64,000 nt of DNA from Streptomyces griseochromogenes. GTDB lineage: Bacteria; Actinomycetota; Actinomycetes; Streptomycetales; Streptomycetaceae. Location: assembly GCF_001542625.1 (NCBI RefSeq), contig NZ_CP016279.1, positions 1,550,001-1,614,000 on the forward strand, given 5' to 3'. The translations under genes and the position numbers were made by a program. Position 1 is the stretch's first letter, and every line of letters begins with the position of its first letter. Below are positions 1-20,262 of this stretch, one piece after another. The notes under the pieces were generated by a model. The model had not been told where the DNA came from. It was given only the letters and a program-made list of their open reading frames with translations, and did no database searches.

Positions 1-73
1 CGAGCAGACGGTTTTCCAGCATCACGACCTTCTTCGGCTGGGCGGACGAATCGTTCTCGCGACGCGACGGCAT
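1..73 (-). CDS. 5' end of an unidentified gene running off the left edge
   Basis: An open frame reads leftward from an ATG at 73 and begins MPSRRENDSSAQPKKVVMLE; only about 24 codons lie in the window. A weak ribosome site (GACGGTGA) precedes the ATG. It diverges from the enediyne operon, sharing the 171-bp spacer 74-244. Too little is visible to name a family. A divergent gene beside a biosynthetic operon is often a regulator or a second operon, but that is only a guess. Confidence 0.5.
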   Translation of the reverse strand, partial: MPSRRENDSSAQPKKVVMLENRLL

Positions 74-192
74 GTTCACCGTCACATGTGCCGGGGTTCT
101 ACCCGGTTGACCGGCGACCGCTGGGTGCGGTTCACCTGTTGGATGCAGGGCAGGTCAGGTGCACTCTTTCGGCGGATCAAGACAACGCCAAG

Positions 193-4282: not shown

Positions 4283-7200
4283 TTGTCCGTGAACGAGACG
4301 CACGACACGGCCCCCCACGACGGCATCGCCGTCGTGGGGATGGCCTGCCGCTACCCCGATGCCGACGATCCCGCGCAGCTGTGGGACCTCGTCCTGCGCA
4401 AGCGGCGCGCGTTCCGGCGGCTGCCCGCGGAACGCCTCGCCGTCGAGGACTACGCCGACCCGACACGCCGCGACCCGGACAGCATCTACGGGACCAGGGC
4501 CGCCCTGCTGGAGGGCTGGCACTTCGACCGGAGCGCCTTCCGCGTTCCCGGCGCCGTGCACCGCGCCACGGACCCCGCCCACTGGCTCGCGCTGGAGACC
4601 GCGGCGCGCGCGCTCGAGGACGCGGGGGTCCCCGGCGGCGCAGGCCTCGACCGGGACCGGGTCGCGGTGGTCATGGGCAACACCCTCACCGGAGAGGTCA
4701 CCCGCGCCCGCACCATGCGGCTGCGCTGGCCGTACGTGCGGGCCGTGCTCGACGCCGTCCTGGCGGAGGAGGGACTCACCGGGACACAGCGCGAGAAGGT
4801 GCTCGCCCGCACCGCCGAGCGCTACCTGGAGCCGTTCCCCGCACCCGACGACGAGTTCCTGGCCGGAGGCCTCGCCAACACCATCGCGGGCCGGATCTGC
4901 AACCAGTTCGACTTCCACGGCGGCGGATTCACCGTGGACGGCGCCTGCGCCTCCTCGCTGCTCGCCGTGACCACGGCCTGCGGGCGGCTGCGTGAGGGCA
5001 GCGCCGACCTGGTGCTGGCCGGAGGCGTGGACATCAGCCTCGACCCGTTCGAACTCGTCGGGTTCGCGCGGCTCGGCGCGCTGGCCGAGGACCGGATGCG
5101 GATCTACGACAAGGAGGCCACCGGCTTCCTGCCCGGCGAGGGATGCGGGGTCGTCGCCCTGATGCGCGGCCGGGACGCGGCCGCCGCCGGGATCCCCGTC
5201 TACGCGGAGATCCGCGGCTGGGGGATCTCCTCGGACGGCGCGGGCGGCATCACCCGCCCCGACCGGCGGGGCCAGCTCCTGGCGCTGCGCCGGGCCTACG
5301 CGCACGCGGGTGTCGACCCGGCCGCCACCGGGCTGGTCGAGGGCCACGGAACCGGTACGGCGGTGGGCGACGCGATCGAGTTGCAGGCGCTGTGCGCCCT
5401 GCGCGCCGGGTCCGCGCGGCCGGCGGCGCTCGGATCGGTCAAGGCCAACATCGGCCACACCAAGGCCGCGGCCGGACTGGCCGGGCTGATCAAGGCGTGC
5501 CTGAGCGTGCACGGCGGTGTGCTGCCGCCGACCACGGGATGCGACAGCCCACGGGACGAACTCGCCGGCGAGGACGCGGTGCTGCGGATCCTCGCCGACG
5601 CGGCCGAGTGGCCGCCCGGGCCGCGCGTCGCCGGGGTGAGCGCCTTCGGGTTCGGCGGCATCAACACCCACGTGGTGCTGGGCGAGCCCCGGCACCCGGG
5701 GCCGCGGGTCACCGCGCTCCCGGCCCTGCCCCGCGCCCGCCGGGCCGACCCGGAACAGGAGCTGATCCTGCTCAGCTCGGACAGCCCCGAGGAACTGTCG
5801 GACCGGCTGCGACGTCTGTCACGGCTGGCCCCGCGGCTGTGCGACGCCGAACTCCACGACCTCGCCTGCGCATGGGGCCGCGAACCCCACCCCGGATCGG
5901 TCCGCGCCGCCCTGATCGCCGCTTCCCCCGAGCAGCTCGCCCGGCGCGCCGAGGCCGCCGCGGACGCCCTCGCCGAGACCGCGCCGGGCACGCTGGCCCG
6001 GCGCCCCGGCGTATGGGCCGCAAACGCCTGCCCGGGCCGGGTCACCCTGCTGTTCCCGGGCCAGGGGGCCCCGCTGCCCGCCGGCCCGGGGGCGATCGGC
6101 GCCGACCTGGCCGAGGACGGGGCGAGCGGGTTCCCGGGCGCCTCCGGCCCCCGCCCGGTCACCGGCACCGCCGCCGCCCAGGCGGTCGTCCACCGGGCCT
6201 CGCTGACGGGCCTGCGCTGGCTCGAAAGACTGGGTGTACGGGCCGAGGCGGCGCTGGGGCACAGCCTGGGCGAGTACGCCGCGCTCGTCTGGGCGGGCTG
6301 TCTGGGCGTGCGGGAGAGCCTGGATCTGGTGGACCGGCGCGGCCGGACGATGGCCGAACTCTGCGCTCCCGGTACCGGGATGCTGGCGCTGACCGCCGAC
6401 GTCGCCGTGGTCGAGGAGCTGTGCCGGGGCACCTCGCTGACGGTGGCCGCGTACAACGGGCCGCTGGCCCAGGTGGTCGCCGGGCCCGCGGGCGCACTGG
6501 CCGCGCTGGCCCGGCGCGCGGCCGAGCGCGGGATCGACGCGCGGCCGCTGCCCGTGGCGCACGCCTTCCACTCGCCCGCCGTCGCCGCCGCGGCCGAGGA
6601 GTTCGCCCCCCTGGTCCGCGCCACCGCGTTCGCGGCGCCCCGTGGCACGCTGCTCTCCGGCGTGAGCGGTGGCGTCTGCCGCACCGGGGGAAGGGAGCTG
6701 CGGGAACTGCTGTGTGCGCAGATGACGGCACCGGTGCGGTTCTGGGAGGCGGTCCGAACGGCCGCCGACCGGACGGACCTGTTCTGTGAGGCGGGCCCGG
6801 GCCGCGCCCTCGCGGCGCTCGCCGCTCCCAGCGGTGTGCCCACGGTGTCCCTGGACGTCGGGGCGCCCGGGCCGGGACCCCGTGCCCAGACGGCGGCCGC
6901 GCTCTTCGCCTGCGGTGCGCTCGCCTCGGCCGAGGCGCTGTTCGAGGGCCGCGAGAGCCGCCCCGTGGACCCGTGGCGGGAGCGGGTGTTCATCGGCAAC
7001 CCCTGCGCCCGGCCAGCGTCCGGGACCGGCACCGCACCGGCCGGCCCTGCCGCACCGGCCACATCGGCCGGATCTGCCGGCCCTGCCGGGCGGGCGGTGT
7101 CCGCCGAGCGGGCCGTACGCGCCGAACGGGCCGTACCCGCACAGCTGTCCGCACCGGCCGAGCCGTTCGCCCTCGTACCCGCCGAGCGGAGCGCACCGGC

Positions 7201-10200
7201 CGGGCCCGCCGGACGGGCCGAGGCCGTCGGGGCGGTCGTACCCGCCGAACGGCCCGCGCGTGCCGAGCCGTTCGCCTCCGTCGTGCCCGACGAGCCCGTC
7301 GTCCGCCCCGCCGGGGAGGACATCGCCGACATCGTCGTGCGCCTGGCCGCCCGGGCCACGGAGTTCGACCCGGAGGCACTCACACCGGACCAGCGTCTGC
7401 TCAGCGACCTGCACCTGTCGTCGCTCAAGGTCACCCAGATGGTCGCCGAGGCCGCCCGCGCGGCGGGCCGTGAGCCCCCGGCCGCACCGCTGACCCTGGC
7501 GGACGCGTCGCTCGCCGAGATCATCGAGGTGGTGCGCGCGCTCCCCGGAGCCGGCAGCGGCGACGAGCCGGAGGCGATCGTGACCGGGATCGCGCCCTGG
7601 ATCCGCTGCTTCGCCGAGCAACTGCGCCCCGTGGCGCCGCCGGCCCCGGACCCCGCCGACCGCCCGGGCCGGATCACCGTCGCGGCACCGCCGGGAGCGG
7701 CGCCCGGCGCCGACGCCCTCAGGCCGCCGCCAGGCGAGCCGACGGGCCGGGCCGAACTGCTCTACGTCCCCGACGCGGAGGCGCCCGAAGGGCTCGCCGG
7801 GATCCTCGGCGCGGCCCGCGCCGCCCTCGCCGGTGACGGCCGGCTCGTCCTGGTCACGCACGGTTCGGGCCTGTCCGGCTTCGCGGGCAGTCTGCACCAG
7901 GAACACCCGGAGCTCGGCATCACCGTGCTCCGGGTCCCGCCGACCGAGGCCGGCCTGGCGGCGGCCGCCGCCGTCGCGGGCGCCGAGCCCGGAGTGCTGC
8001 GGGAGCTGGTGGTGCGCGAGGACGGCACCTGCGCCGAGCCGGTCGCCGTGCCGCTGCCCGAACCGGCCGCCGCCGAACCGGTACTCGGCCCGGGGGACGT
8101 ACTGCTGGTCAGCGGCGGCGGCAAGGGGCTGGGCTTCGAGGCCGCGGCCGCCTTCGCCCGGACGACGGGTGTCCCGCTCGCCCTGCTCGGCCGCGCCGAT
8201 CCGGCCCGGGACACGGTGCTGCGGCGGAACCTGGAACGGCTCGCCGAACTCGGCACCACGGTCCGCTATCAGCGGGCGGACGTCACCGACCCGCACGCCA
8301 CCGCGCACGCGGTCGCCGAGGTGGAGCGCGAACTGGGCCCGGTCACCGCCGTGCTGCACGCCTCCGGGATCAACCGGCCGCGGCGCTTCGACGACCTCAC
8401 CGAGGCCGACGTACGGGCCCACCTGGCACCGAAGACCTCGGGTCTGGCCCATCTGCTGGCCGCGGTGGACCGCGGCCGGCTGCGCCTGCTGATCGGATTC
8501 GGCTCGGTGATCGGCCGCTACGGACTGGCGGGCGAGTGCCACTACGCGCTCGCCAACGGGCGGCTGCGCCAGATGCTCCAGGACGAGGCCCGCCACCTGC
8601 CCGGATGCCGCACCCTGGTGCTCGACTGGTCGGTGTGGGCCTCGGTGGGCATGGGTGAACGGCTCGGTGTGCTGGACCAGTTGGCCCGAAAGGACGTCAC
8701 ACCGATCCCCGTGGAGCGGGGCCTGGACCTGCTGCTGCGGCTGGCCGCCGCTCCGGGCCTGCCCACGGCGGTGACCGTGCACGGACGCATGGGACTGCCT
8801 CCGCGCCCCCTGCCCGCCGACGCGTGCGGCCCCGCGGCCCGGTTCCTGACGCGTCCGCGCATCCACTACCCGGGCGTGGAACTCGTCGTGGACAACGTGC
8901 TGACCGAGGCCACCGACCCGTATCTGCGCGACCACCGCGTCGACGGGCTGCCGGTGCTGCCCGCCGTCGTCGGCCTGGAGGCGATGGCCCAGGCCGCGTC
9001 CGTCCTGGCGGGCCGGCCGCTGCGCCGCTGCCGCGAGGTGACGTTCGATCAGCCCGTCACCCCGGCGGCCGGGGCCCCGCGCGTCCTGCGGCTGTGCGCG
9101 CTCGCCGAGGACGGTGCCGTCACCGTGGCCCTGCGCAGCGACGAGACGGCGTTCGGGGCGGACCACTTCCGCGCCGTGTTCCCGCTGCCGGACGGCGCGG
9201 AACCGGCCGACGCGCCGTCCCTGTCGCCGGTGACCGGCGACGACCCCGAGGTCCTGGCCGCGGACCTCTACGGGCCGCTCTACTTCCACACCGGCCGCTT
9301 CCGGCGGGTCGAGCGGCTGGGCGGCCTGCGGGCCCGGCAGGTCAGGGCCCGGCTCGGCACCGCCGTCGAGGCGGGCTGGTTCGCCCGGGGACTGGCACAG
9401 GGCCTGCTCCTCGGCAGCCCCGGACGCAACGACGCGACCATCCACGCGCTGCAGGCCTGTGTCCCGGGCCGGCGGCTGCTGCCCGTGGGCTGCGAGGAGT
9501 TCCAGGCCGCCGGACAGGTCCCGGCCGGTGCGGACGGTGACGTCACCGTGCATGCCCGGGAACTCTGGTGCGGGGGCGGCGCGTACGAATGGGACGTCGA
9601 GGCCGTGGACACCGACGGGCGGGTCCTGGTCCGCTGGCACCGGCTGCGGCTGCTGGACGTGGGCCGGCTGCCGCGCCGGGAGCGCTGGATCCGGCCGCTG
9701 CTCGCGGTGCACCTGGAACGCGGCGCGCTGGCGCTCGGCCTGGACCCCGCCCTGACGCTCGGCATCGAGTCGGGCGCACCGCGGGAACGCACCGTCCCTC
9801 CGGTGCGGCCGCCGCACGGGACCTCGCGCAGCCACTGCGGTCCGCTGACCCTGACCGCCACGGCCCCGGGCGGTGTCGCCGTGGACTGGCAGCGGATCGC
9901 CCCCGCCGAGGCCGACGGGGTGCGCTCGGCGCTCGGCCCCCCGTACGAGGGCCTGTGGACGCAGCTGCGCCTCGCGCTGGACGAACCGGACCACGCCATC
10001 GCGGCACGGCTGTGGGCGGTGGCCGAGTGCGGCGGCAAGGCTGGGTACGGCCCCACCGCGCCGGTGACCGTGGACGGGGTCTTCGAGGACGGCTGGGTCC
10101 GCTTCCGCAGCGGGCGTTCGCTCGTCGCGACCACGGTGGTCCCGGACCGGCTGGCGCCCGAGGGCGTGCCGGAACCGGAGCCGGGCACCGGCGACGGGCC

Positions 10201-10330
10201 GGGCCCGGTGATCGCCGTGGCCGTGATGACAGGAGCGGGAGGCACACATGTGGCAGCGCGACACGTACAACCACCGGCATCTGGTGATGCTGGAGGAGAC
10301 GAACCTCGTCGGGAACGTGTACTTCAGTAA
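4283..10330 (+). CDS. pksE: Iterative enediyne polyketide synthase PKSE
   Basis: This 2015-residue iterative type I synthase makes the enediyne polyene precursor. Domains in order: ketosynthase (about 10-460) with Cys222, His355 and His392; acyltransferase (about 585-900) with GHSLGEY nucleophile Ser661; acyl carrier domain with Ser1047 in the LSSLK motif; ketoreductase (about 1270-1490) with an SGGGKGLG nucleotide loop and Tyr1421; dehydratase with His1551 in DHRVDG; and a C-terminal phosphopantetheinyl transferase domain with WAVAECGGK near residue 1910. This architecture is specific to enediyne synthases. TTG at 4283 sits 6 bp after AGGAGA; GTG at 4289 is an alternative. A repetitive Ala/Pro linker lies between acyltransferase and carrier. 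The 3' end overlaps the thioesterase by 83 nt. Confidence 0.95.
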   Translation: MSVNETHDTAPHDGIAVVGMACRYPDADDPAQLWDLVLRKRRAFRRLPAERLAVEDYADPTRRDPDSIYGTRAALLEGWHFDRSAFRVPGAVHRATDPAHWLALETAARALEDAGVPGGAGLDRDRVAVVMGNTLTGEVTRARTMRLRWPYVRAVLDAVLAEEGLTGTQREKVLARTAERYLEPFPAPDDEFLAGGLANTIAGRICNQFDFHGGGFTVDGACASSLLAVTTACGRLREGSADLVLAGGVDISLDPFELVGFARLGALAEDRMRIYDKEATGFLPGEGCGVVALMRGRDAAAAGIPVYAEIRGWGISSDGAGGITRPDRRGQLLALRRAYAHAGVDPAATGLVEGHGTGTAVGDAIELQALCALRAGSARPAALGSVKANIGHTKAAAGLAGLIKACLSVHGGVLPPTTGCDSPRDELAGEDAVLRILADAAEWPPGPRVAGVSAFGFGGINTHVVLGEPRHPGPRVTALPALPRARRADPEQELILLSSDSPEELSDRLRRLSRLAPRLCDAELHDLACAWGREPHPGSVRAALIAASPEQLARRAEAAADALAETAPGTLARRPGVWAANACPGRVTLLFPGQGAPLPAGPGAIGADLAEDGASGFPGASGPRPVTGTAAAQAVVHRASLTGLRWLERLGVRAEAALGHSLGEYAALVWAGCLGVRESLDLVDRRGRTMAELCAPGTGMLALTADVAVVEELCRGTSLTVAAYNGPLAQVVAGPAGALAALARRAAERGIDARPLPVAHAFHSPAVAAAAEEFAPLVRATAFAAPRGTLLSGVSGGVCRTGGRELRELLCAQMTAPVRFWEAVRTAADRTDLFCEAGPGRALAALAAPSGVPTVSLDVGAPGPGPRAQTAAALFACGALASAEALFEGRESRPVDPWRERVFIGNPCARPASGTGTAPAGPAAPATSAGSAGPAGRAVSAERAVRAERAVPAQLSAPAEPFALVPAERSAPAGPAGRAEAVGAVVPAERPARAEPFASVVPDEPVVRPAGEDIADIVVRLAARATEFDPEALTPDQRLLSDLHLSSLKVTQMVAEAARAAGREPPAAPLTLADASLAEIIEVVRALPGAGSGDEPEAIVTGIAPWIRCFAEQLRPVAPPAPDPADRPGRITVAAPPGAAPGADALRPPPGEPTGRAELLYVPDAEAPEGLAGILGAARAALAGDGRLVLVTHGSGLSGFAGSLHQEHPELGITVLRVPPTEAGLAAAAAVAGAEPGVLRELVVREDGTCAEPVAVPLPEPAAAEPVLGPGDVLLVSGGGKGLGFEAAAAFARTTGVPLALLGRADPARDTVLRRNLERLAELGTTVRYQRADVTDPHATAHAVAEVERELGPVTAVLHASGINRPRRFDDLTEADVRAHLAPKTSGLAHLLAAVDRGRLRLLIGFGSVIGRYGLAGECHYALANGRLRQMLQDEARHLPGCRTLVLDWSVWASVGMGERLGVLDQLARKDVTPIPVERGLDLLLRLAAAPGLPTAVTVHGRMGLPPRPLPADACGPAARFLTRPRIHYPGVELVVDNVLTEATDPYLRDHRVDGLPVLPAVVGLEAMAQAASVLAGRPLRRCREVTFDQPVTPAAGAPRVLRLCALAEDGAVTVALRSDETAFGADHFRAVFPLPDGAEPADAPSLSPVTGDDPEVLAADLYGPLYFHTGRFRRVERLGGLRARQVRARLGTAVEAGWFARGLAQGLLLGSPGRNDATIHALQACVPGRRLLPVGCEEFQAAGQVPAGADGDVTVHARELWCGGGAYEWDVEAVDTDGRVLVRWHRLRLLDVGRLPRRERWIRPLLAVHLERGALALGLDPALTLGIESGAPRERTVPPVRPPHGTSRSHCGPLTLTATAPGGVAVDWQRIAPAEADGVRSALGPPYEGLWTQLRLALDEPDHAIAARLWAVAECGGKAGYGPTAPVTVDGVFEDGWVRFRSGRSLVATTVVPDRLAPEGVPEPEPGTGDGPGPVIAVAVMTGAGGTHVAARHVQPPASGDAGGDEPRRERVLQ

Positions 10331-10709
10331 CTACTTCCTGTGGCAGGGGCATTGCCGCGAGCGCTTCCTGGCCGAGCGGGCGCCGGGAGTGCTCAGGGCC
10401 CTGAGCGAGGACTTCGCCATGGTCACCGTCTCCAGCCGCTGCGACTTCCTCGCCGAGCTGTACGCCGCCGAGGAGGTGGAGGTGCGGATGTCGCTCGGCG
10501 CACGCGAGTCGAACAAGGTCACCATGCGCTTCGACTACTACCGGCTGCGGGACGGGACGGCTCAGCTGGTGGCCCGGGGAGAGCAGACCATCGCCTGTAT
10601 GCGGCGCGGCGCCGAGGGCATGGAGCCGATCGACGTGCCCGAGGAACTCGCCGAGGCGCTGCGCCCCTACGAGCGGGAACCCGCGCTGGCGGTGGCGCGG
10701 AGTGTCTGA
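10248..10709 (+). CDS. tebC: Enediyne thioesterase TEBC (hot-dog fold)
   Basis: A 153-residue single-domain hot-dog thioesterase of the SgcE10/CalE7/DynE7 type that releases the polyene chain from the PKSE carrier domain. Diagnostic is the N-terminal block ETNLVGNVYFSNYFLWQG followed by HCRERFL, which contains the family's conserved Asn and Arg positions. The ATG lies inside the 3' end of pksE in another frame (83-nt overlap), with GGAGCGGGAGG upstream, and the stop overlaps the following GTG by 8 nt. It completes the five-gene warhead cassette. Confidence 0.93.
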   Translation: MWQRDTYNHRHLVMLEETNLVGNVYFSNYFLWQGHCRERFLAERAPGVLRALSEDFAMVTVSSRCDFLAELYAAEEVEVRMSLGARESNKVTMRFDYYRLRDGTAQLVARGEQTIACMRRGAEGMEPIDVPEELAEALRPYEREPALAVARSV

Positions 10710-11400
10710 ACCGGACATCCGCCCCGGCCGCGACGGATCCGCGGCCTCGCCGCTGCCGGCCCGCACCGCCGTGGTGGGGTGCGGACGCATGGGGTCCGCT
10801 CTGGTGCACGCCGCGCTCCGGCAGGGCCTTCAGGTGCTGGCCGGTGTGCGCGAGCACCGTCGCAGACGGCCCGGTGTGCCGCCGGAGGTGGTCCAGCTGG
10901 CGCCCGGGGAAGCCGCGGCGGCGGCCGAGCTGGTGGTGCTCGCGGTGCCGCCGGGCGAGCCGCTGCGGCAGGTGGCCGAGCAGCTGGAGGCGGTGCTGGC
11001 CGGCAAGGTGGTGCTGGAGCTGTCCAACCCCGCGATGACCCGGCGCGACATGCCCGCACAGCGCGGGCCCTGGGGGCCGAGCGAAGCGGAGCTGCTGGCC
11101 CGGCGGCTTCCCCGAACGCGCGTGGCGAAGGCGCTGAACACGGTCTCGGCCAAAGCCCTCGGGCGACTTGGGTCCGTGCCCTGCGGGGAGTGGCGCCGGC
11201 CGAGCGTACCCGTCGCCGCGGACGATCCGTCGGCGCAGCGGCTGGTCTGCGCCTGGGTGGAGGCGCTGGGCCTGGAGGCGGTGCCGGCCGGACCCCTCGC
11301 GCATGCCCGCTCGCTGGAGCACCTGGCCCAGCTGCTGTGCCACATCGACGCGCAGTCGGGGCGCACGGGGCTGGTGGGCTGCCGGATCCTGCGCCCCTGA
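10702..11400 (+). CDS. NADPH-dependent F420 reductase-like oxidoreductase
   Basis: A 232-residue Rossmann protein with an N-terminal nucleotide loop (VVGCGRMGSAL), the AELVVLAVPP strand-loop and the ELSNP segment. This pattern belongs to the NADP-oxidoreductase, coenzyme F420-dependent family, which also includes ProC-like folds. The KALNTVSAKAL block is also typical of that family. Substrate and cofactor cannot be read from sequence; a role in warhead reduction or F420H2 recycling is possible. GTG starts 8 nt before the thioesterase stop, so it is coupled to the enediyne cassette. The first 20 residues look disordered. Confidence 0.7.
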   Translation: MSEPDIRPGRDGSAASPLPARTAVVGCGRMGSALVHAALRQGLQVLAGVREHRRRRPGVPPEVVQLAPGEAAAAAELVVLAVPPGEPLRQVAEQLEAVLAGKVVLELSNPAMTRRDMPAQRGPWGPSEAELLARRLPRTRVAKALNTVSAKALGRLGSVPCGEWRRPSVPVAADDPSAQRLVCAWVEALGLEAVPAGPLAHARSLEHLAQLLCHIDAQSGRTGLVGCRILRP

Positions 11401-11467: not shown

Positions 11468-12328
11468 ATGTCCGAAACGCTTGACTCCGACCGCGGGGAC
11501 GCAGACGTGCGGACCGTCATCCCCCTGCTGATGCCCGCTCCGCACGGCCCGCTCGCGGGCGTCGAGATCCGCCGCCCGGGTCCGTCCGGCCCCCACTGGA
11601 ACGGCAGCAGAGCGGCGCTGGTCTCCGGAGCGGGGGGCGCCAAGGAGGACTTCCTGCCGCTGATGCACCGTCTGGCCGAGGAGGGACACCGGCTCTTCGC
11701 CGTCGACCTGTGCGGCCAGAACGAGACCCCCGGCCCCGACGACCCCGCCGCGTACGGCATCGACGCGCTCGCCACCGACCTGGCCGTCGCGATGACGGCG
11801 GCGTGCGCCCGCAAGCCCGTGCACCTCGTCGGCCACGGTGCCGGCGCCCTGGTGGCGGCCACCGCCGTGCTCCAGGCCCGCTCCCGGGAGAGGTTCGCGC
11901 CGTCGACGTACCGCAGCCTCACCCTTGTCGCCCCCTGCTGGGACGGGCTCCTGACGGCCGATGACGCGGTGTCCGCCGACTGGGAGCGGCGGATGGCGCG
12001 GCAGCACCGCGGCGGCCTCCTCGCCGGCGAGCGCCGTGCCGTGATCCGGCAACGGCTGGCCCGCAGCCACCCGATGAACCTGGAGCACCTGGCCTCGGCC
12101 ATCGCCGGACCGGAGCTCGCCGCCGGGCTGCGCGCCGCCGGCATCCGGATGCTGGTGGTGGGCGGGGCGGAGGACCCGCTGGTCCCGGTGGACCGCACCG
12201 GGGAACTGGCTCGGCACCTCGGCGCGCGCCACGGTGTCGTCCCCGGGGCCGGACATCTGCCGCACCAGGACAACCCCGGTGCCCTCGCCGGCGTTCTGAC
12301 GGCGTTCTGGGCGGAGGACGGCGCGTGA
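11468..12328 (+). CDS. Alpha/beta-hydrolase fold protein lacking the nucleophile serine
   Basis: A 286-residue alpha/beta-hydrolase. The nucleophile elbow, normally GxSxG, reads Gly122-His-Gly124-Ala-Gly126, so the catalytic serine is a glycine (codon GGT). The acid (GGAEDPLVP) and histidine (PGAGHLPHQ) regions are still present. The protein is therefore probably non-hydrolytic, perhaps a binding protein or a catalyst of another reaction. A strong GAAGGAG ribosome site precedes the ATG, 67 bp after the reductase gene on the same strand. The following 136 bp are AT-richer than the surroundings and may hold a promoter for the tat genes. Confidence 0.75.
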   Translation: MSETLDSDRGDADVRTVIPLLMPAPHGPLAGVEIRRPGPSGPHWNGSRAALVSGAGGAKEDFLPLMHRLAEEGHRLFAVDLCGQNETPGPDDPAAYGIDALATDLAVAMTAACARKPVHLVGHGAGALVAATAVLQARSRERFAPSTYRSLTLVAPCWDGLLTADDAVSADWERRMARQHRGGLLAGERRAVIRQRLARSHPMNLEHLASAIAGPELAAGLRAAGIRMLVVGGAEDPLVPVDRTGELARHLGARHGVVPGAGHLPHQDNPGALAGVLTAFWAEDGA

Positions 12329-12464
12329 CGCGTGCAACGTGTGCGCGGCTCAACGAGTGAATCCCCGGTCGCATAGCGCCCGTTTGAGATGATATGTGGT
12401 GTAAATGTCGTTATGACAGGTGTTCGCCGGATCCAGCGACCTCGCTGTACCTCTTGGAGTGATG

Positions 12465-12971
12465 GTGTTCAACCTGAGCCCGTTCACCCTGGTCGCTCTC
12501 GCACTGATCGCGCTGTTCGTCTACGGCCCCGACAGGCTTCCCAAGGCCGTCGGGGAAGCGGCGCGTGGCCTGCGCAGGCTGCGCACGGTGCTGCGCGGCG
12601 CCACCGACGGGGTCCGGCGGGAGCTGGGTCCCGAGTACCAGGATCTGCGCCTGCGCGACCTCAACCCGCGGGCGTTCGTCACGAAGCACCTGCTGGAGGA
12701 CGGCGAGCCCTGGGACCCGCCGGAGCCGCGGTGGCAGCCGGGTCCGAAGCCCGAGGGCTGGCCGGAGCACGTGCCGTTCCCCTCGGCCGCCGAGATGGGC
12801 ATGGACGAGGGGGCGGACCCGTTCAGAGCCCCCATTCCGCACGACCGGACCTCGCCGCCGGCACGGGACACATCGGCGGACGCGGCGCCCGCTGAGCAGG
12901 CGTCGCGGACGTCCGCCGACCATACGTCCGCGCCTGAGCGCGGCGCGGGCGTACGGATGCACGACCGCTGA
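12465..12971 (+). CDS. tatB: Second TatB-type twin-arginine translocase subunit
   Basis: A 168-residue protein with one N-terminal transmembrane helix (NLSPFTLVALALIALFVYGP), the FGP-like hinge and an amphipathic helix (DRLPKAVGEAARGLRRLR). It then shows the actinobacterial TatB signature ELGPEYQDLRLRDLNPRAF, followed by a Pro-rich disordered tail. TatB forms the substrate receptor with TatC. GTG at 12465 is chosen because it gives the family-like start VFN and sits 5 bp after GGAG; ATG at 12462 is possible. It lies directly upstream of tatC, whereas streptomycete housekeeping tatA-tatC and tatB lie elsewhere, so this is probably an extra copy. Confidence 0.85.
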   Translation: MFNLSPFTLVALALIALFVYGPDRLPKAVGEAARGLRRLRTVLRGATDGVRRELGPEYQDLRLRDLNPRAFVTKHLLEDGEPWDPPEPRWQPGPKPEGWPEHVPFPSAAEMGMDEGADPFRAPIPHDRTSPPARDTSADAAPAEQASRTSADHTSAPERGAGVRMHDR

Positions 12972-13004
12972 TCTCGTCGCTCACGCAAGAGGAGTTCCGC
13001 CCCC

Positions 13005-13892
13005 GTGGACACGACCAGACTCGACAAACCCCGGACCCCGGCCGTGCAGGGCGGCCGGATGCCTCTGCGCGAGCACCTGCGCGAGCTGCGCAACCGCTTG
13101 GCGAAGGTCCTGCTCCTCGTGTTCCTCGGCACGGCGGTCGGCTGGCATCTGCACCCCTGGATCATCACCGAACTGACCGGCCCCAGCTGCCACCTGCCCG
13201 GCCTGCACGGGATCGCTCCGGCCACACCCGCCTGTCCCAACGGGCTGATGGTGATGCAGGGCGTGATGACCCCGCTGACCTTCACCTTCAAGGTGGCCCT
13301 CGCCGCCGGAGTGGTGATCTCCAGCCCGTTCTGGTCGTACCAGCTGTGGGCCTTCGCGGCGCCGGGGCTGCACCGCCACGAGAAGCGCTACGCGCTCGGG
13401 TTCGTCGCCGCCGCCGTGCCGCTGTTCCTGTCCGGGGCAGGGCTCGCCTACTGGGTGTTCCCGCAGGCCCTGCGGATCCTGCTCGGATTCACGCCGGGTG
13501 CCTTCAGCAACTCGCTGCAGGGCGATCAGTTCCTGGATTTCTTCATCAGGATGATCCTGGTGTTCGGCATCTCCTTCGAGATGCCGCTGCTGCTCGTGCT
13601 GCTCAACTTCACGGGCGTGGTGAGCGCCGGGAGCCTGCTGGCCCGCTGGCGGACCCTCGTCATGCTGATCTTCGTGTTCTCGGCCCTCGCCACCCCCACC
13701 GGCGACCCGCTCACCATGATGGTCCTCGCCGTGCCGATGACCGCCTTGTTCGCCCTGTCGCTGGCCGTGATCGTCTGGCGCGACCGGGTGCGCGCACGCA
13801 GGGCGGGACAGGCGGCGCTCTCGCCCGACGAGGCGTCCCCGCTCGACCTGACGCCGTCGCGGACCGAGGTTCCGGCGAGAAGCGGGGACTGA
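13005..13892 (+). CDS. tatC: Second TatC-type twin-arginine translocase subunit
   Basis: A 295-residue polytopic membrane protein with six predicted helices. It opens with the TatC signature MPLREHLRELRNRL, contains the FWSYQLWAFAAPGLHRHEKR cytosolic loop, and keeps the glutamate in FEMPLL that lines the signal-peptide binding site. The first periplasmic loop has two extra cysteines (SCHLPG and ATPACPNG). TatC recognises RR signal peptides. It starts 33 bp after tatB with a GAGGAG site. Position in the enediyne operon, followed by genes for secreted proteins, suggests a dedicated translocon core; no tatA is visible here, so it would have to borrow one. Confidence 0.9.
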   Translation: MDTTRLDKPRTPAVQGGRMPLREHLRELRNRLAKVLLLVFLGTAVGWHLHPWIITELTGPSCHLPGLHGIAPATPACPNGLMVMQGVMTPLTFTFKVALAAGVVISSPFWSYQLWAFAAPGLHRHEKRYALGFVAAAVPLFLSGAGLAYWVFPQALRILLGFTPGAFSNSLQGDQFLDFFIRMILVFGISFEMPLLLVLLNFTGVVSAGSLLARWRTLVMLIFVFSALATPTGDPLTMMVLAVPMTALFALSLAVIVWRDRVRARRAGQAALSPDEASPLDLTPSRTEVPARSGD

Positions 13893-13934
13893 CACGCCGC
13901 CTCCCCCCACCAAGAAGCCGTCTCGGAGCCATCT

Positions 13935-15251
13935 ATGAACACCGACACCGTCCGGCCGCACGCCGACCCGGCCGCCACCGTCCCGCGCCGTGTGCTCGTG
14001 GGACGCGCGGCGGCCGTCCTGCTGATCCTGCTGCGCGGTGGTGCGGCATTCGCCGGACACACGGCCGCCGGGGTCCTGCGCCGCGACCTCCGTACTCGCC
14101 GGGACCGCTGGCTGGTTGACCTGGTCACCCGGCTCGGCCCCGCCTTCATCAAGGCCGCCCAGCTGCTGGCCACCCGGGTGGACGTGCTGCCGCCCCGCGT
14201 GTGCGCCGCGCTCGCCCGCCTGCACGACGGCGTCCGGCCGGTGCCGCTGACGGGCGCGGCCGGCGAACTGCGCGACACCGGACTCGTACTGGACCGGGGC
14301 ACCGACGGGATCGCCCGCCCGGTCGCCGCCGGCAGCATCGCCTGCGTCTACCGTGCGACCGCTCCCGACGGCCGGAGGGTCGCGGTGAAGCTACGGCGCC
14401 CCGGAGTCGCCCGGCAGCTGGCGGTGGACCTGGAACTCATGCGCAGGGGCACCCGGCTGGTGGCCCGGCTGCCCCGGATGCGCGGTCTGCCGGCCGTCGC
14501 GGTCGTCGACCAGATGGCGCAGGCGGTCCACGGCCAGCTGGACTTCGTGAAGGAGGCGCGCTTCCTGGAGGAGTTCCGGGAGAACATGGCGCAGGAGTCC
14601 GGTCTCCGGGTCCCCGCCGTGCACCGGGAACTGAGCCACGACGGCGTTCTGGTCATGGAGTTCGTGGAGGGCCTGCGACGCCGTGAGCCCCACGAGTTCC
14701 CCGAGGGAACCCGTGAGCGGGCGGTGCTGTCGACGCTGCGCGGGATCTACCGGATGCTCTTCATCGACGGGCTGGTCCACTGCGACCTGCACCCCGGCAA
14801 TCTCTACTTCCTGCCGGACGGTGACGTGGTGCTGGTGGACGCCGGCTTCACCGTGCGCCTGGACGAGCAGACCCGCGCCACGTTCGCCTGGTTCTTCCTG
14901 CAGATGTCCATGGGGGACGGGGAGGCCTGCGCCCAGATCGTCCTGTCCACGGCGACCGCCGGGCCGCACGCCGACACGGACGGCTTCACGCGCGAACTCG
15001 CCGCGCTGGTAAGGGCGAACACCGGGGTGTGCGCGGCCGCCTTCGACCTGGTGACGTTCGGCTCCTCGCTCTTCGACATCCAGCGCCGTCACGATCTGTA
15101 CGCCGCACCGGAGTTCGTGTTCCCCCTGCTGTCCCTGCTGGTGCTGGAGGGCACCGTACGAGCCTTCGCCCCGAAGGTGGACTTCCAGAAGGAGGCCAGG
15201 CCGTATCTGATGAAGGCCCTGTTCGGCGACGCCTACCGGCAGACGGCCTGA
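13935..15251 (+). CDS. ABC1/UbiB-family atypical kinase-like protein
   Basis: A 438-residue protein of the AarF/ABC1/UbiB family. Visible are the Ala-rich nucleotide loop (AAGSIACVYRA), the VAVKL lysine, HCDLHPGN (catalytic loop) and VDAGF (metal-binding DFG equivalent). The family's KxGQ motif is altered to Lys73-Ala-Ala-Gln76. A hydrophobic N-terminal stretch (residues about 20-40) could hold it at the membrane. UbiB proteins support lipid and quinone metabolism in other bacteria; here the job is unknown. It starts 42 bp after tatC on the same strand and is the last gene before a strong terminator, so it probably belongs to the enediyne/Tat transcript. Confidence 0.8.
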   Translation: MNTDTVRPHADPAATVPRRVLVGRAAAVLLILLRGGAAFAGHTAAGVLRRDLRTRRDRWLVDLVTRLGPAFIKAAQLLATRVDVLPPRVCAALARLHDGVRPVPLTGAAGELRDTGLVLDRGTDGIARPVAAGSIACVYRATAPDGRRVAVKLRRPGVARQLAVDLELMRRGTRLVARLPRMRGLPAVAVVDQMAQAVHGQLDFVKEARFLEEFRENMAQESGLRVPAVHRELSHDGVLVMEFVEGLRRREPHEFPEGTRERAVLSTLRGIYRMLFIDGLVHCDLHPGNLYFLPDGDVVLVDAGFTVRLDEQTRATFAWFFLQMSMGDGEACAQIVLSTATAGPHADTDGFTRELAALVRANTGVCAAAFDLVTFGSSLFDIQRRHDLYAAPEFVFPLLSLLVLEGTVRAFAPKVDFQKEARPYLMKALFGDAYRQTA

Positions 15252-15299
15252 AGCGGCTCACCTCCCCGGGGCGCGGCGGTGAGCCGCGGGCGCGCGAAG

Positions 15300-15338
15300 G
15301 CCGAGCCCCGCCCACCCGGCTGGTGGACGGGGCTCGGC
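15300..15338. terminator. Bidirectional hairpin terminator between convergent genes
   Basis: An 11-bp perfect stem (GCCGAGCCCCG with CGGGGCTCGGC) encloses a second 5-bp stem (CCACC/GGTGG). It lies between the stop of the ABC1 protein and the stop of the convergent Tat-signal protein, and would serve both strands. Like many Streptomyces terminators it has no T tract. Confidence 0.75.
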
Positions 15339-15349
15339 CTGCCCGGTTC

Positions 15350-16030
15350 TCAGGCGCTCTGGTTGACCGTGACAGGGAAGCCCTGCAGCTCGGCGGCCTG
15401 GTTGCCGTTCTTGTCGAGGAGCGGCACGTTGCCGCCCAGCGTGTACCCCTGGTTGGCCGGCGGGAACGCTTTGAGCACACCCGAGCTCAGCGAGGCGGGG
15501 TTGTTCGGGTCGGTGGACAGGACCAGCGGGGCGCTGCCGTCCTTCCGGTCGATCGTGAGCGTGAAGAGCAGCTTGATGAGCATCTCCGGGAAGGGCGGGA
15601 CCGGAGGGATCGCTGTCGGGTTGCCGGGGTTCATCTGCAGCAGGCTCAGCGGGGTGATCGTGGTGTCCGACTGCTCGATGGTGACCATGAGGTTGGGGGT
15701 GTCCGCGACCACCTTGTGGCCGATGACCTCGATGACGAGACCGGTCTCGTTGCTCGTACGGACGCAGACGTCGATGCCGCCCTTGAAGTCGAGGTTGACG
15801 ACCCCGGTGTCGATCTTCAGCGGCACGTTGGAGGCGTAACAGCTGCACGGGATGTCCACGCCCACGGGCGGCAGCGCGAACGGGAACGGTTGGGCGGCGG
15901 CTCTCTCCGCCGCCTCGGCCTCCGCGGCACCCGGTACCAGAACTCCGGCGCCGACCGCTGCGGCGGTGACCGCCGCTCCCTTCATGAATCCGCGGCGGTC
16001 GCTGCCGCTGATCTCAGCAGACTCAGTCAT
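15350..16030 (-). CDS. Secreted protein with a canonical twin-arginine signal, function unknown
   Basis: A 226-residue protein whose start at 16030 follows GGAGAAAGGAAG. The N-terminus has Asp11-Arg12-Arg13-Gly-Phe-Met-Lys17, then a hydrophobic Ala/Val core and an Ala-rich cleavage region near residue 38: a textbook Tat signal. The mature part (about 190 residues) is rich in beta strands, with a Cys-Ser-Cys pair, one further cysteine (IDVCVR) and Pro/Phe-rich turns; no enzyme motif is evident. I do not recognise the family. It converges on the tatB-tatC-ABC1 genes and is an obvious candidate cargo for that translocon. Confidence 0.75.
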   Translation of the reverse strand: MTESAEISGSDRRGFMKGAAVTAAAVGAGVLVPGAAEAEAAERAAAQPFPFALPPVGVDIPCSCYASNVPLKIDTGVVNLDFKGGIDVCVRTSNETGLVIEVIGHKVVADTPNLMVTIEQSDTTITPLSLLQMNPGNPTAIPPVPPFPEMLIKLLFTLTIDRKDGSAPLVLSTDPNNPASLSSGVLKAFPPANQGYTLGGNVPLLDKNGNQAAELQGFPVTVNQSA

Positions 16031-16365
16031 CCGACTGTTCTTCCTTTCTCCACGGTGAGTGGGCAGCACATGGGCCGTCATGGAAGGCCGCTGCCACCCT
16101 GGTCGCGCATGCCTGGGTCTTACGGCAGCGTCGAGTCACCTATACCGCAGTGAAAGTGACGAACCATCATAATCGTTTCATTTCCTTCGATTGGGTCCGT
16201 TTGTCCTGACTCCGCACTGATGGGTTCGCGCACGAGGAGCCTTGCGTGGGGCCGAACGGGGGAGCGGCGCTTCCTTCATTTGCCGCCGTTCGCCTTCTCC
16301 GGAATGCGCGCGGTGGCTCGGCCACGGCGCGCCGTCACGTCTATTTCCCTTATCCATCCACACTT

Positions 16366-16394
16366 TTGAGACAATTGACGTCAAATCATATTCG
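16366..16394 (+). promoter_or_regulatory. Candidate promoter with embedded palindrome
   Basis: In the 426-bp divergent spacer 16031-16456, TTGAGA (16366-16371) and TATTCG (16389-16394) are 17 bp apart and 62 bp upstream of the ATG at 16457. The 10-bp palindrome TTGACGTCAA (16375-16384) fills part of the spacer, a plausible operator. The rest of the gap is AT-richer than average, with no other clear element; no convincing hexamer pair was found for the leftward gene. Confidence 0.4.
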
Positions 16395-16456
16395 CTGGGG
16401 TCGAATGGCGGCGGAGCCGTCGCGGCCCGCCCAGGGCAAGGGAAAGGCTGTTCCTC

Positions 16457-17170
16457 ATGACGGGTGGACAGGGACCGGCCGGGACCGGGAGATTCGGCCC
16501 GCCGGCGCGCCGAGTCGGAGCCGGCCGGGTCGGAACGTGGTGCGCCGCGGCCGTGCTGGCGGGATCGGCGACGGCCATGGGCGCGAACCCGGCGGCGGCC
16601 GCCGGGAAACCGCATCCCGTGCTGGTCGACCGTCCGCAGAAGCCGCCCGCCGTCATCGCGCCCGGGCATTCGGGCCGGGCGCTGATCCGGCTCGAGAACA
16701 CCGGCCGGGCGAACTCGGCCAACAACGGGCGCATGTACATGGAGATCTGGGCCCCCTACGGCACCCGCTTCACGGACACCAAGCTGACCCCGCTCCACGG
16801 GGCACCCGGCGGATGGTCCTGCAAGGGCGACGCGTACCGGCCGGGCGTACCGTACGAGAGCACCGTCCTGCGCTGCGTCTCCGACCACCACGGGCCGGTC
16901 GTCCGCGCGGGCCGAACGGCGGTCTGGCAGCTGAGGATGAAGGTCGAGCCCGGCACACGGGCCGGAACCACGTTGTCGGCCACCCCCAACAACTATGGAG
17001 CCGCGCTCCACTACAGCTACCACGGCAAGTCCGTCTGGAAGACCCTGTCCCTGGCGGTCAGGACCCCCGGCGGACAGGTGAACCGGGCGGGTGGGCCGGC
17101 GCACCACCAGCGCCACGGCGGATCGCCGGGCCACCACCGCACCACGGCACGAAAGGGGCACATCCGGTGA
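16457..17170 (+). CDS. Secreted Ig-like protein, paralogue of the gene at 17359
   Basis: A 237-residue protein with an N-terminal RR-containing signal (hydrophobic core WCAAAVLAGSATAM, cleavage near AAAAG) and a mature domain of about 150 residues predicted as beta sandwich. It shares with the neighbour at 17359-18009 the sequence DRPQxP, DTKxTP, PGGWSC, a second cysteine about 24 residues later, a Trp strand and the terminal SLxxRTP. The two cysteines probably form a disulfide. The C-terminus is a His/Gly/Arg tail. Function unknown; small beta-sandwich secreted proteins beside an enediyne synthase recall apoproteins, but no sequence match to known ones is evident. Confidence 0.7.
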   Translation: MTGGQGPAGTGRFGPPARRVGAGRVGTWCAAAVLAGSATAMGANPAAAAGKPHPVLVDRPQKPPAVIAPGHSGRALIRLENTGRANSANNGRMYMEIWAPYGTRFTDTKLTPLHGAPGGWSCKGDAYRPGVPYESTVLRCVSDHHGPVVRAGRTAVWQLRMKVEPGTRAGTTLSATPNNYGAALHYSYHGKSVWKTLSLAVRTPGGQVNRAGGPAHHQRHGGSPGHHRTTARKGHIR

Positions 17171-17290
17171 CGGCGGCGCACCCCGCGCGGACCGCGGTGC
17201 GTCCCGCTCCGCCGCGGCACCTCGACCGCGTGGTGCCTGCCGCCTGCCGTTCCCGGTGACCTCCCCCTGCCCCACGGCGTGAAGCGCGCG

Positions 17291-17330
17291 GCCGGATGCG
17301 GTCCGCTCCACGGAGCGGACCGCATCCGGC
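17291..17330. terminator. Perfect 18-bp hairpin between convergent secreted-protein genes
   Basis: GCCGGATGCGGTCCGCTC (17291-17308) and its exact complement (17313-17330) flank a 4-base loop. It sits between the stops of the two secreted paralogues and should end transcription from both sides. Confidence 0.8.
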
Positions 17331-17358
17331 AGGGCCTCGGCCCGGGGCGGGGACGCCG

Positions 17359-18009
17359 TCAGGGCGCCGGCGTACGGGCTTCCAGGCTCATCGAGTTCGA
17401 GTCCCACCAGGTGTCGCGGTCGCGGTCCGGGGAGTGCAGCCGCAAGGCCGCCCAGCCGTTGGCGCTCCTGGTGCCCGCCGGCAGCTCCGCGGGCGCCGCG
17501 ATGTTCACCTTCCAGTGCCATTCCTCGGCAGGCGGCGGCCCGCTGTAGCTGGACGTGCAGATCATGTGGGTGCCGTTGTGCTCCATGGGGGTCATCCCGT
17601 GGAACATCCGGCAGGACCACCCTCCCGGCGCCGTGCCGACCGGGGTCACCTTGGTGTCAGCCAGCCGCATGAGCTCCGGCGAGTACACCGCCAAGGTCAA
17701 CTTGTCGACGCGGGAGGGCAGATTCCCCGTCTTCTTGATCCCGAACGTCACCGGCGCGGACGAGCCCGGCTTGATGAGGGTGGCGGGACTCTGGGGGCGG
17801 TCCGTTCCCCAGTACGGCTGCGGGGTGCCCGTCCTCGGCGCGGCGGTGGCCGGGACGGGGCCGGCGCCCAGGGTGAGTGCGGCGCTCGCCGCAAGGACCG
17901 CGGCGCACCACTTCCCCGCGCGCCGAAGCACGCCCCGGCGGACGGACAGAGGGCGTTCGGCGCCGGGACGCGCCGGCGCCCCGGCCGGCCGTCGCACATC
18001 GGTCATCAT
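17359..18009 (-). CDS. Secreted Ig-like protein with RR signal, paralogue of the gene at 16457
   Basis: A 216-residue protein starting at ATG 18009 (18006 also possible) after GAGGAAGAGG. Its long signal contains Ser-Val-Arg-Arg-Gly-Val-Leu-Arg, close to the Tat consensus, then a hydrophobic core and an ATA-A cleavage site. The mature part aligns with the product of 16457-17170 over about 150 residues, with the same DRPQ, DTKVTP and PGGWSC blocks and two further cysteine-region matches. Function unknown. The pair looks like a local duplication followed by inversion. A 16-bp inverted repeat lies in its leader. Confidence 0.7.
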   Translation of the reverse strand: MMTDVRRPAGAPARPGAERPLSVRRGVLRRAGKWCAAVLAASAALTLGAGPVPATAAPRTGTPQPYWGTDRPQSPATLIKPGSSAPVTFGIKKTGNLPSRVDKLTLAVYSPELMRLADTKVTPVGTAPGGWSCRMFHGMTPMEHNGTHMICTSSYSGPPPAEEWHWKVNIAAPAELPAGTRSANGWAALRLHSPDRDRDTWWDSNSMSLEARTPAP

Positions 18010-18369: not shown

Positions 18370-18921
18370 TCAGGGCTGGAGGGGCACGGCTTCGCGGTAG
18401 CCGTGGACGGTGATGTGATCCGCCATCTCGGAGTACGCGGCGGGCTGGTCGGGAGCGATGGTGGCCAGGCCGTCGACGTAGCGGTTGTACATGCAGAACG
18501 CCGCCGCGATCAGGACGGTGTCGTGGATCTCCGTGTCCGTCGCCCCCGCAGCGCGGGCGGTCTTGATGTGCTCGTCGGTGACCGCCCGGCCGCTCTCCTG
18601 GACCGCGTCGGCGACGGCGAGCAGGGCTTTGAGCTTGTCGGAGACGGGCGCCGCGGCCGGGTCGGTGCGCACCTGGTCGACCAGGGGCATGCCCTGGTCC
18701 AGTTGGGCGGCGGCGAACGCGGCGTGGCAGTTGGTGCAGAAGCGGCAGCTGTTGAGGTGGGAGACCCGGGCGGCGATCAGCTCCCGCTCGCCCCGGCTCA
18801 GCGTGCTGGGCCCGCGCAGCAGGATCTCGGCCAGCTCGTTCAGCGGTGCGGCAGTCTCCGGCCGGAACGCGAACAGCGACACGATCCCGGGCAGGTCATT
18901 GCCGAGCTCGATGTGCGGCAT
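18370..18921 (-). CDS. AhpD-like carboxymuconolactone decarboxylase-family protein
   Basis: A 183-residue all-helical protein with the redox motif Cys-Arg-Phe-Cys-Thr-Asn-Cys-His (SCRFCTNCHAAF), typical of the AhpD/CMD peroxidase-like family, preceded by SRGERELIAARVSHLN. The second half repeats the fold (TDTEIHDTVLIAAAFCMYNRYVDGL). Such proteins reduce peroxides using the CxxC pair and a proton-relay His, or act as decarboxylases. The start at 18921 follows GGAGGTATGT. The gene is monocistronic between its terminator and the MetE-like gene. A detoxifying role beside a radical-generating enediyne is conceivable but only inferred from position. Confidence 0.8.
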   Translation of the reverse strand: MPHIELGNDLPGIVSLFAFRPETAAPLNELAEILLRGPSTLSRGERELIAARVSHLNSCRFCTNCHAAFAAAQLDQGMPLVDQVRTDPAAAPVSDKLKALLAVADAVQESGRAVTDEHIKTARAAGATDTEIHDTVLIAAAFCMYNRYVDGLATIAPDQPAAYSEMADHITVHGYREAVPLQP

Positions 18922-19124
18922 ACATACCTCCTTCAGTCGGTTGCGTTTCGGCCGTCCGGCCACCGGTCCCGCCGCCGACACCCGTGTGGCGATCGTCCCG
19001 CCCGACCGGACGGAGCACGACGGGACCGCCCACCACACCGCACCGCTCCGCAGGGGCACGGGGCGGTGTCGACATACGGCGTCATCATGTGGGCGCGACC
19101 AGCCACCCGCGACCCTCGGTCGGC

Positions 19125-20204
19125 CTACTTCGCTTCCGTCGGAACGCCGAGCGCCTGGGAGGCCAGGCCGGTCCCCCGCACGCGTGCCGCGATCTTGGCG
19201 AAGGCCAGGTCGCGCGAGGTGGACGTGTCGTCGGCGAACGGCGAGAAGCCGCAGTCGTCGCAGGTGCCCAGCTGGTCCACCGGGATGTGACGGGCCGCGA
19301 GCAGCACCCGGTCACGCACCTCCTCCGGGGTCTCCACCCTGGGATCGACGGGATCGGTCACCCCCACGAACACCCGGATGCCCGGGCGCAGTTGATCGGC
19401 GATGATGCCGAGGACCCGCTCGGGATCGGCCTCGCTGGCCAGCTGGATGTAGAAGTTGCCCACCTCCAGCCGGAAGAGCTTGGGCAGCAGTCCGGCGTAG
19501 TCGACGTCCAGGCTGTGGGTGGAGTCGTGGTCGCCGCCGGGGCAGGTGTGCACCCCGAGGCGGGCCCGCTCCGCCTCGCCGAACCGGCCGAGCACCTCGT
19601 TGTTCAGGGCGATGAAGTCGTCGAGGAGCGCGCCGCTCGGGTCGAGCTTGAGCGAGAGGCGGCCCTCGGTGAAGTCCAGCTGGACCACGTGTGCGCCCGC
19701 CTCCAGGCAGCCGCGGATGTCGGCCTCCGCCTCGTCGGCCAGGTCCCTCAGGAACGCCTCGCGGGAGTACCCCGCGATGGACTCGGCCGGGTAGAGCAGG
19801 CTGAGCGCCGAGGGCGCGATGACCGCCTGCTTGAGGGGGCGGTCGGTGTGCCGCCGGGCGTCGCGCAGATACGACTCGGCGCGGACCTGGTAGCGGAACG
19901 GCCCCTCGGTCAGATGCGGCAACTGCCGGACGTGGCCGTCGCTGAACGGGATGGTGACACCGTGCGGGGCGAGGCCGGCCAGGCCGGCGATCGGGTAGGT
20001 GGCGAAGCTGGGCTTGGCCTGCTCTCCGTCGACCAGGACGGGACAGCCCAGCTCCTCGAGACGGGCAAGCGTGTCCGCCGCCGCCTGTTCCTGGAGTTCG
20101 GCCAACTCCTTGTCGCTCAACCGGCCTTGGGCGTGCTCACCGAGGGCCTGCTGCAGGGCGCGAGGACGGGGGATGCTGCCGATCGGCTCAGTGGGAATGC
20201 TCAT
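19125..20204 (-). CDS. MetE C-terminal-domain-like methyltransferase (UROD/MetE fold)
   Basis: A 359-residue single-domain protein resembling the catalytic half of cobalamin-independent methionine synthase. It begins IPTEPIGSIPRP (substrate loop) and has DGEQ, a GAHVVQLDFTEGR barrel strand, VHTCPGGDHDS (His/Cys zinc ligands) and TCDDCGFSPF (third Cys ligand region). It lacks the N-terminal half of full MetE (about 750 residues), as do archaeal-type and methylcobalamin-dependent short forms, so the methyl donor is uncertain. Start at ATG 20204; the ribosome site is weak. Two tandem palindromic repeats sit 22-58 bp upstream and probably control it. Confidence 0.8.
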   Translation of the reverse strand: MSIPTEPIGSIPRPRALQQALGEHAQGRLSDKELAELQEQAAADTLARLEELGCPVLVDGEQAKPSFATYPIAGLAGLAPHGVTIPFSDGHVRQLPHLTEGPFRYQVRAESYLRDARRHTDRPLKQAVIAPSALSLLYPAESIAGYSREAFLRDLADEAEADIRGCLEAGAHVVQLDFTEGRLSLKLDPSGALLDDFIALNNEVLGRFGEAERARLGVHTCPGGDHDSTHSLDVDYAGLLPKLFRLEVGNFYIQLASEADPERVLGIIADQLRPGIRVFVGVTDPVDPRVETPEEVRDRVLLAARHIPVDQLGTCDDCGFSPFADDTSTSRDLAFAKIAARVRGTGLASQALGVPTEAK

Positions 20205-20225
20205 AATCCGGAACCATAGGAAGCC

Positions 20226-20262
20226 CCTTGTGCCCCGACAAGAGGCCTTGTGCCCCGACAAG
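20226..20262. repeat. Two 17-bp palindromic direct repeats upstream of the MetE-like gene
   Basis: CCTTGTGCCCCGACAAG occurs at 20226-20242 and 20246-20262, period 20 bp. Each copy is itself a 5-bp dyad (CTTGT/ACAAG around a 6-base centre). The position just upstream of the leftward start at 20204 suggests a tandem operator for a dimeric regulator. Confidence 0.6.

Follow-up and report, generated by a model that had tools for sequence, protein, structure and literature searches.

A Tat translocon set beside an enediyne cassette in one Streptomyces lineage, with a predicted DynF-like barrel protein as its putative client

Why should an enediyne-type biosynthetic cluster carry protein-export genes of its own? 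The question is raised by a 64,000-nucleotide stretch of the Streptomyces griseochromogenes genome (contig NZ_CP016279.1; 1.55-1.61 Mb of a 10.76 Mb single-contig genome), which as a whole we call the window, and in which genes of the twin-arginine translocation (Tat) machinery follow an enediyne polyketide synthase (PKSE) cassette. The original prediction, made from the sequence alone, took these tat genes, a Tat-signal protein just beyond them and two secreted paralogues to be a self-contained module that exports folded, perhaps already loaded, binding proteins. Here, we identify a real, recurrent association between tat genes and the cassette within one Streptomyces lineage; the Tat-bearing cluster is a new variant of the enediyne cassette. 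We further propose, in a reading that we hold to be evenly poised, that the cassette acquired its own TatA2/B2/C2 translocon, and that its main client is the Tat-signal protein, here called RRsec, a putative DynF-like barrel.

Tat genes around an enediyne cassette

The predicted second tatB-tatC pair is borne out by profile searches: tatC2 (13005..13892, plus strand) scores 205.6 bits with PF00902 (cut-off 25.1), and tatB2 (12459..12971, plus strand, with its start ambiguous between 12459 and 12465) reaches 21.1 bits with PF02416 (cut-off 21) and 94.2 bits, slightly below the cut-off of 96, with the NCBIfam model for sec-independent (TatB-type) translocases. A tatA2 gene (PF02416, 55.9 bits in a whole-genome search) spans the window's left edge, divergent from the cassette; its 5' end occupies 1..85 on the minus strand, and the rest of the 111-residue gene call (-250 to 85) lies to the left of the window. 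Because this divergent gene joins tatB2 and tatC2, a TatABC set surrounds the cassette, and homologues of TatA, TatB and TatC are encoded together, with both families above their cut-offs, TatB barely so. These are not the sole tat genes of the genome, which holds two TatC and five TatA/B genes in all: as had been expected, housekeeping genes lie elsewhere, including, at 8.036 Mb, the other tatC with an adjoining tatA, and also a tatB-like gene (1.370 Mb) and one more tatA (6.092 Mb). From homology, the cassette-borne machinery would export proteins with twin-arginine (RR) signals.

The cassette itself is complete, with the E3, E4, E5, E and E10 genes together in one operon. The first 12 kb of the window form a compact run of unbL (E3-type, DUF1702; 245..1342, start codon uncertain; PF08012, 294.3 bits), unbV (FG-GAP repeats and UnbV_ASPIC; 1339..3273, with a hydrophobic N-terminus), unbU (an NqrB/RnfD-like membrane protein; 3270..4271), the enediyne-type PKS gene (KS-AT-ACP-KR-DH; 4289..10330, start inferred), an E10-type thioesterase gene (10248..10709; PF13279, 50.9 bits), a gene for an F420-dependent/NADP reductase-like protein (10702..11400; PF03807, 39.8 bits) and an alpha/beta hydrolase gene (11468..12328; PF00561, 54.1 bits). 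UnbU falls slightly below the Pfam cut-off (PF03116, 26.9 bits against 27.7; E 4e-6), yet it aligns with the UnbU of four other cassettes. After the hydrolase come tatB2, tatC2 and, directly 3' of tatC2 and absent from the original prediction, a gene for a UbiB/ABC1 kinase-like protein (ubiB, 13935..15251; PF03109, 165.1 bits); all genes of the run are plus-strand, and neighbors overlap or are separated by at most about 130 bases. Judged by eye, without annotation, the genes on the left of the cassette seem unconnected with it, and the cluster therefore appears small.

Tat genes recur beside related cassettes, within limits. A DUF1702 match is present in 38 of 392 same-genus genomes, and among 37 of these (G425 was dropped, as below the cut-off) a genuine second TatC occurs only in the window's own genome and in G205, which together with G451 was taken as one strain, Streptomyces sp. 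IMTB 2501; an extra match in G221 is a fragment (E 9e-4). A scan with an UnbU alignment returned 50 loci, with a PKSE detectable in 45. We searched 44 genomes, namely the window's own and those of the UnbU loci apart from L084, L094 (the same strain as L081) and the loci L107, L110, L112, L113 and L115 from metagenome-assembled genomes. Two TatC genes are present in five of the 44, all of them Streptomyces (the window genome, Streptomyces sp. IMTB 2501, S. alanosinicus, S. sp. S.PB5 and S. melanogenes), and in every one the second TatC sits in the cassette locus. The prediction that tatBC would be found beside other PKSE genes thus stands for four other strains, all in one Streptomyces lineage; as a general enediyne trait, Tat is rejected by the same count.

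All five clusters share a divergent tatA2, the order tatB2-tatC2-ubiB and an RRsec gene past ubiB, so that the cassette stands between tatA2 and tatBC2-ubiB; S.PB5 and S. melanogenes have an extra gene, flavoprotein-like by eye, between ubiB and RRsec. Two further genes, for a carboxymuconolactone decarboxylase (CMD)/AhpD-like protein and a MetE-like (cobalamin-independent synthase) protein, lie at varying places. In the window they are found past the secreted-protein gene secB (CMD, 18370..18933, minus strand, PF02627, 55.5 bits; MetE, 19125..20261, minus strand, PF01717, 48.9 bits; both starts uncertain), in IMTB 2501 both stand between the hydrolase and tatB2, as does the MetE gene of S. 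alanosinicus, and in S.PB5 both lie left of tatA2; MetE-like genes are also found at several related loci. As these genes shift place among the clusters, the tat block has held its order despite rearrangement.

Phylogeny and selection both speak to the standing of these genes. A 26-row tree groups the five TatC2 proteins in a single clade (100/99) with a branch length of 0.7 changes per site, separate from the housekeeping TatC of Streptomyces; they are not recent copies of the housekeeping gene. HLRELR, AFxAPGLHxxEKRY and ATPTGDP, stretches of a type that matters in TatC, are kept in all five aligned TatC2 sequences. Ratios of nonsynonymous to synonymous substitution rates (dN/dS), calculated pairwise between the window's genes and those of the other four Tat-cluster strains, are 0.23-0.37 for tatA2, 0.48-0.57 for tatB2 and 0.20-0.43 for tatC2. 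This constraint is comparable to that of the biosynthetic genes (0.24-0.39 for unbL, unbU, E10, the reductase and ubiB; 0.46-0.70 for the hydrolase), and the cluster tat genes are under purifying selection.

Several other loci deserve mention. UnbU loci also occur in metagenome-assembled genomes of Planctomycetota, Verrucomicrobiota and Gemmataceae (L107, L110, L112, L113, L115), and since L110, L112 and L113 have a PKSE match, such cassettes are not confined to actinobacteria. In a genome of the same genus (G087), a second tatA-tatC-tatB set is accompanied by an alpha/beta hydrolase-like protein whose RR signal was read by eye (L127:4056-6929), apparently a parallel Tat-plus-cargo arrangement. 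The window's own genome has a second DUF1702 gene (447 bits) with an UnbV-like match (41%) about 8 kb off (L063, G000:C1:4508001-4527900), probably a second enediyne-type locus.

RRsec and the other secreted proteins

RRsec (15350..16030, minus strand) is the protein whose Tat signal had been predicted, and the signal is confirmed: it carries the twin arginine and matches TIGR01409 with 27.8 bits (cut-off 16.7), while its 19.7 bits with the Pfam TAT_signal family PF10518 fall below the cut-off of 22.7. A search of 5.8 billion proteins gave a family of 19 members, the window's own included, and locus searches added members beside cassettes of Amycolatopsis, Prauserella, Halosaccharopolyspora, Actinopolyspora, Lentzea and Saccharothrix. 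RR-x-F followed by a hydrophobic residue is kept in 27 of 32 aligned relatives, and three distant relatives (E 4.5e-5 to 0.003), encoded next to Sinosporangium, Rhizohabitans and Actinomadura cassettes, have DRRRF signals. Two of the five Tat clusters also encode a second RR-signal protein, weakly related to RRsec (L068:4333-5031 and L066:19872-20567, the latter on the minus strand; 30% mutual identity), for which tblastn found no match in the window. Two Saccharothrix loci (L071:6839-11596 and L085:6026-11635) hold UbiB, UnbV, UnbU and an RRsec without the Tat motif, with no PKSE in the 20 kb covered.

The structure model of RRsec is a barrel whose best fold match is DynF (6UBL), and we predict on this basis that RRsec has the DynF barrel fold. 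A 32-member profile that included the signal gave weak matches to PDB chains (best E 0.0054); 33 of the 34 are confined to profile positions 1-56, the signal region, and NapA, NosZ and the arsenite oxidase AioB are among the chains listed. Apart from Tat-signal models and, weakly, a ribonucleotide-reductase model, RRsec, secA and secB have no match in Pfam or NCBIfam, and no chromoprotein apoprotein stands among the fold matches listed for RRsec and secA (50 rows), a listing that leaves room for one.

The distribution of RRsec suggests what such a barrel might do. Across the 44 genomes DUF6073, the DynF family, is present in 16, RRsec in 20, both in two and neither in ten, an exclusion with a Fisher value of 0.0014 when relatedness is ignored; DUF6073 was counted per genome, its place inside a cassette being seen only for CB03234, and the RRsec count includes L080 at E 6e-4, a weak distant match, and scores L098 and L114, below threshold, as lacking RRsec. 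CB03234, one of the two genomes with both, has each protein in a cassette of its own, the two cassettes being on different contigs. That the two seldom share a genome points to equivalent roles. In an UnbU tree of 50 rows (L115 left out, 13 rows without label), one clade (100/94) holds 14 other RRsec, the five Tat, two of the three distant-RR and two unlabelled cassettes, and is adjoined by five DynF cassettes, including that of tiancimycin; the labels require 4 changes, against 17.7 when shuffled. This distribution fits the replacement of one barrel carrier by another. The second cassette of CB03234, the tiancimycin producer, comprises an RRsec without the Tat motif, UbiB, UnbL-V-U, PKSE and E10 (L059/L081).

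The two other secreted proteins fare differently. The products of secA (16457..17170, plus strand) and secB (17359..18009, minus strand) are indeed secreted paralogues, with 32% identity, and their membership of the module is doubtful. For secA the predicted structure is an Ig-like sandwich (mean pLDDT 74.1); 43 Foldseek matches fall below 0.001, none of them outstanding, and the pair look like Ig-like surface proteins. There is little constraint on secA (dN/dS 0.77-0.95) or secB (0.63-1.10, leaving out an 18-codon comparison; the S. melanogenes secB match is only 31% and may not be an orthologue), the Tat-like motif of secB is missing from its relatives in S. alanosinicus and S.PB5, and relatives of both occur in strains absent from the RRsec list. 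These observations do not support secA and secB as binding proteins of the module.

What the Tat genes may export

We propose that RRsec takes on its fold in the cytoplasm and probably encloses there a hydrophobic polyene or a core intermediate from PKSE and E10, and that UbiB perhaps helps to draw this lipid-like ligand out of the membrane. A part in moving lipid-like intermediates is suggested by its kinship with the COQ8/UbiB family, and UbiB-family proteins stand near UnbV in 24 of 49 UnbV loci, within the stretches examined. Tat would then carry the folded, loaded barrel across the membrane, and outside RRsec would either meet UnbV and the membrane protein UnbU or keep the reactive product from the cell's DNA; in related cassettes without tat genes, the housekeeping Tat would export the same protein. 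By a simple hydrophobicity score, which is not a signal-peptide predictor, UnbV has a hydrophobic N-terminal stretch in 44 of 49 loci and E10 in none of 39. Since UnbV has this N-terminus and UnbU is NqrB/RnfD-like, an exported carrier would meet both at or outside the membrane. A bolder version, which we advance only tentatively, is that part of enediyne core maturation is extracytoplasmic, with Tat exporting a loaded DynF-like barrel to the place where UnbV and UnbU act and this lineage carrying its own TatABC for the purpose, so that a hydrophobic small molecule would cross by Tat as the passenger of a folded protein. The mechanism is plausible and unproven. Of the module originally predicted, the export of a binding protein that is folded and perhaps carries a load fits, because the extra tat genes are recurrent and constrained and RRsec has a predicted DynF-like barrel; the part assigned to secA and secB falls away.

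A number of observations weigh against a dedicated translocon with RRsec as its client. Fifteen of the 20 RRsec genomes are without a second TatC, so RRsec does not generally depend on the cassette's Tat and can presumably use the housekeeping one. Five of the 32 relatives lack the motif from the chosen starts (two Saccharothrix, S. ficellus, S. sp. CB03234 and S. exfoliatus), and RRsec, with dN/dS of 0.34, 0.46 and 0.70 in three usable comparisons (that with S. alanosinicus, of only 9 codons, was not used), is less constrained than tatC2. Homology to DynF is not significant by sequence alone (hmmsearch E 1.5; hhalign gives a probability of 46%, with E 2.1e-4 for one pair), and DynF itself still binds palmitate when co-expressed with PKSE and thioesterase (PMC8725005). 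Distant RRsec matches are present in 9 of 14 members of a Catenulisporaceae-like family, a name guessed from the sequences, and the stretches of about 3.3 kb around them contain no cassette genes. RRsec-like proteins, apparently secreted as judged by eye, occur in same-order relatives (L154, L155, L157, L158, L163), and as the short stretches at these loci are likewise without cassette genes, the barrel family may serve other purposes too. Finally, since the five Tat clusters fall in a single clade, one acquisition may account for their recurrence.

This last point, together with the 15 RRsec genomes without a second TatC and the presence of second TatC genes in seven of 150 relatives searched (the window's own genome included), favors a reading in which the Tat set is a passenger, a general second translocon gained once and kept for reasons apart from the cassette, while the housekeeping Tat exports RRsec everywhere. 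We consider this somewhat unlikely, since tatA2 and tatBC2-ubiB flank the cassette in all five clusters, the tat block held its place while CMD and MetE moved, and the tat genes are constrained like biosynthetic ones. It is also conceivable, though in our judgment improbable, that RRsec is an extracellular protein that sequesters the finished product, for self-protection or as a chromoprotein-like carrier, rather than a biosynthetic carrier. A Tat-signal barrel in an enediyne-type cluster would suit such a role, and its fold relative DynF holds ligand inside, as described in PMC8725005. However, that best fold match is biosynthetic: by the same account, the orthologue Sgd15 is essential for sungeidine and its mutant has no detected intermediates, and the near-exclusion of RRsec and DUF6073 again points to equivalent roles. 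For the chromoprotein secretion route envisaged in the original prediction this means that the binding protein resembles DynF, not an apoprotein, and that a biosynthetic step is no less likely.

If the proposal of a cassette-borne Tat with RRsec as client is correct, it would provide a naturally occurring example of a ligand-holding barrel exported by Tat. How the linear PKSE product is converted to the enediyne core is unsettled, and our findings bear on where these steps take place. With RRsec conserved beside cassettes in Streptomyces and Pseudonocardiaceae, and a cluster TatABC in five strains, the location of the core steps is directly testable.

Relation to known systems

We found no report of an enediyne cluster with its own Tat in the open-access library searched, outside which most subscription journals lie; the word stem "transloc" is absent from the main text of the 2016 genome-neighborhood paper, and PMC11857848, in the passages covered, names enediyne and Tat only in genome inventories. 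The five genes of the enediyne cassette described in PMC5181780 (E3/E4/E5/E/E10) are the same five found here in one operon. Described clusters often span 80-120 kb (PMC5181780), whereas this one is small and includes TatABC, UbiB and a Tat-signal, putatively DynF-like protein. DynF, whose role is given as not confirmed in PMC8725005, belongs to DUF6073; RRsec differs in bearing a Tat signal, and none of its 32 family members matches PF19550 at E 0.05.

ABC1/UbiB-family proteins are likewise part of the tiancimycin cluster, as TnmR2 and TnmR3 (PMC9464397). Deletion of TnmR3 lowers titer about fivefold, and as presented there it is read as a sensor kinase and the pair as regulators; here, in contrast, ubiB directly follows tatC2 and would have a role in lipid handling. 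More than one tatC is found in about 5% of surveyed species (PMC3827258), and the closest parallel to a dedicated set is Bacillus subtilis TatAd-TatCd with PhoD, likewise a second Tat system beside the gene of a Tat-signal protein (PMC3068169, PMC3827258). That system, as described in PMC3068169, is a minimal TatAC without TatB whose substrate is a phosphatase and which belongs to no biosynthetic cluster, whereas the S. griseochromogenes set is a TatABC wrapped around an enediyne cassette, its putative specificity for RRsec read from the arrangement of the genes.

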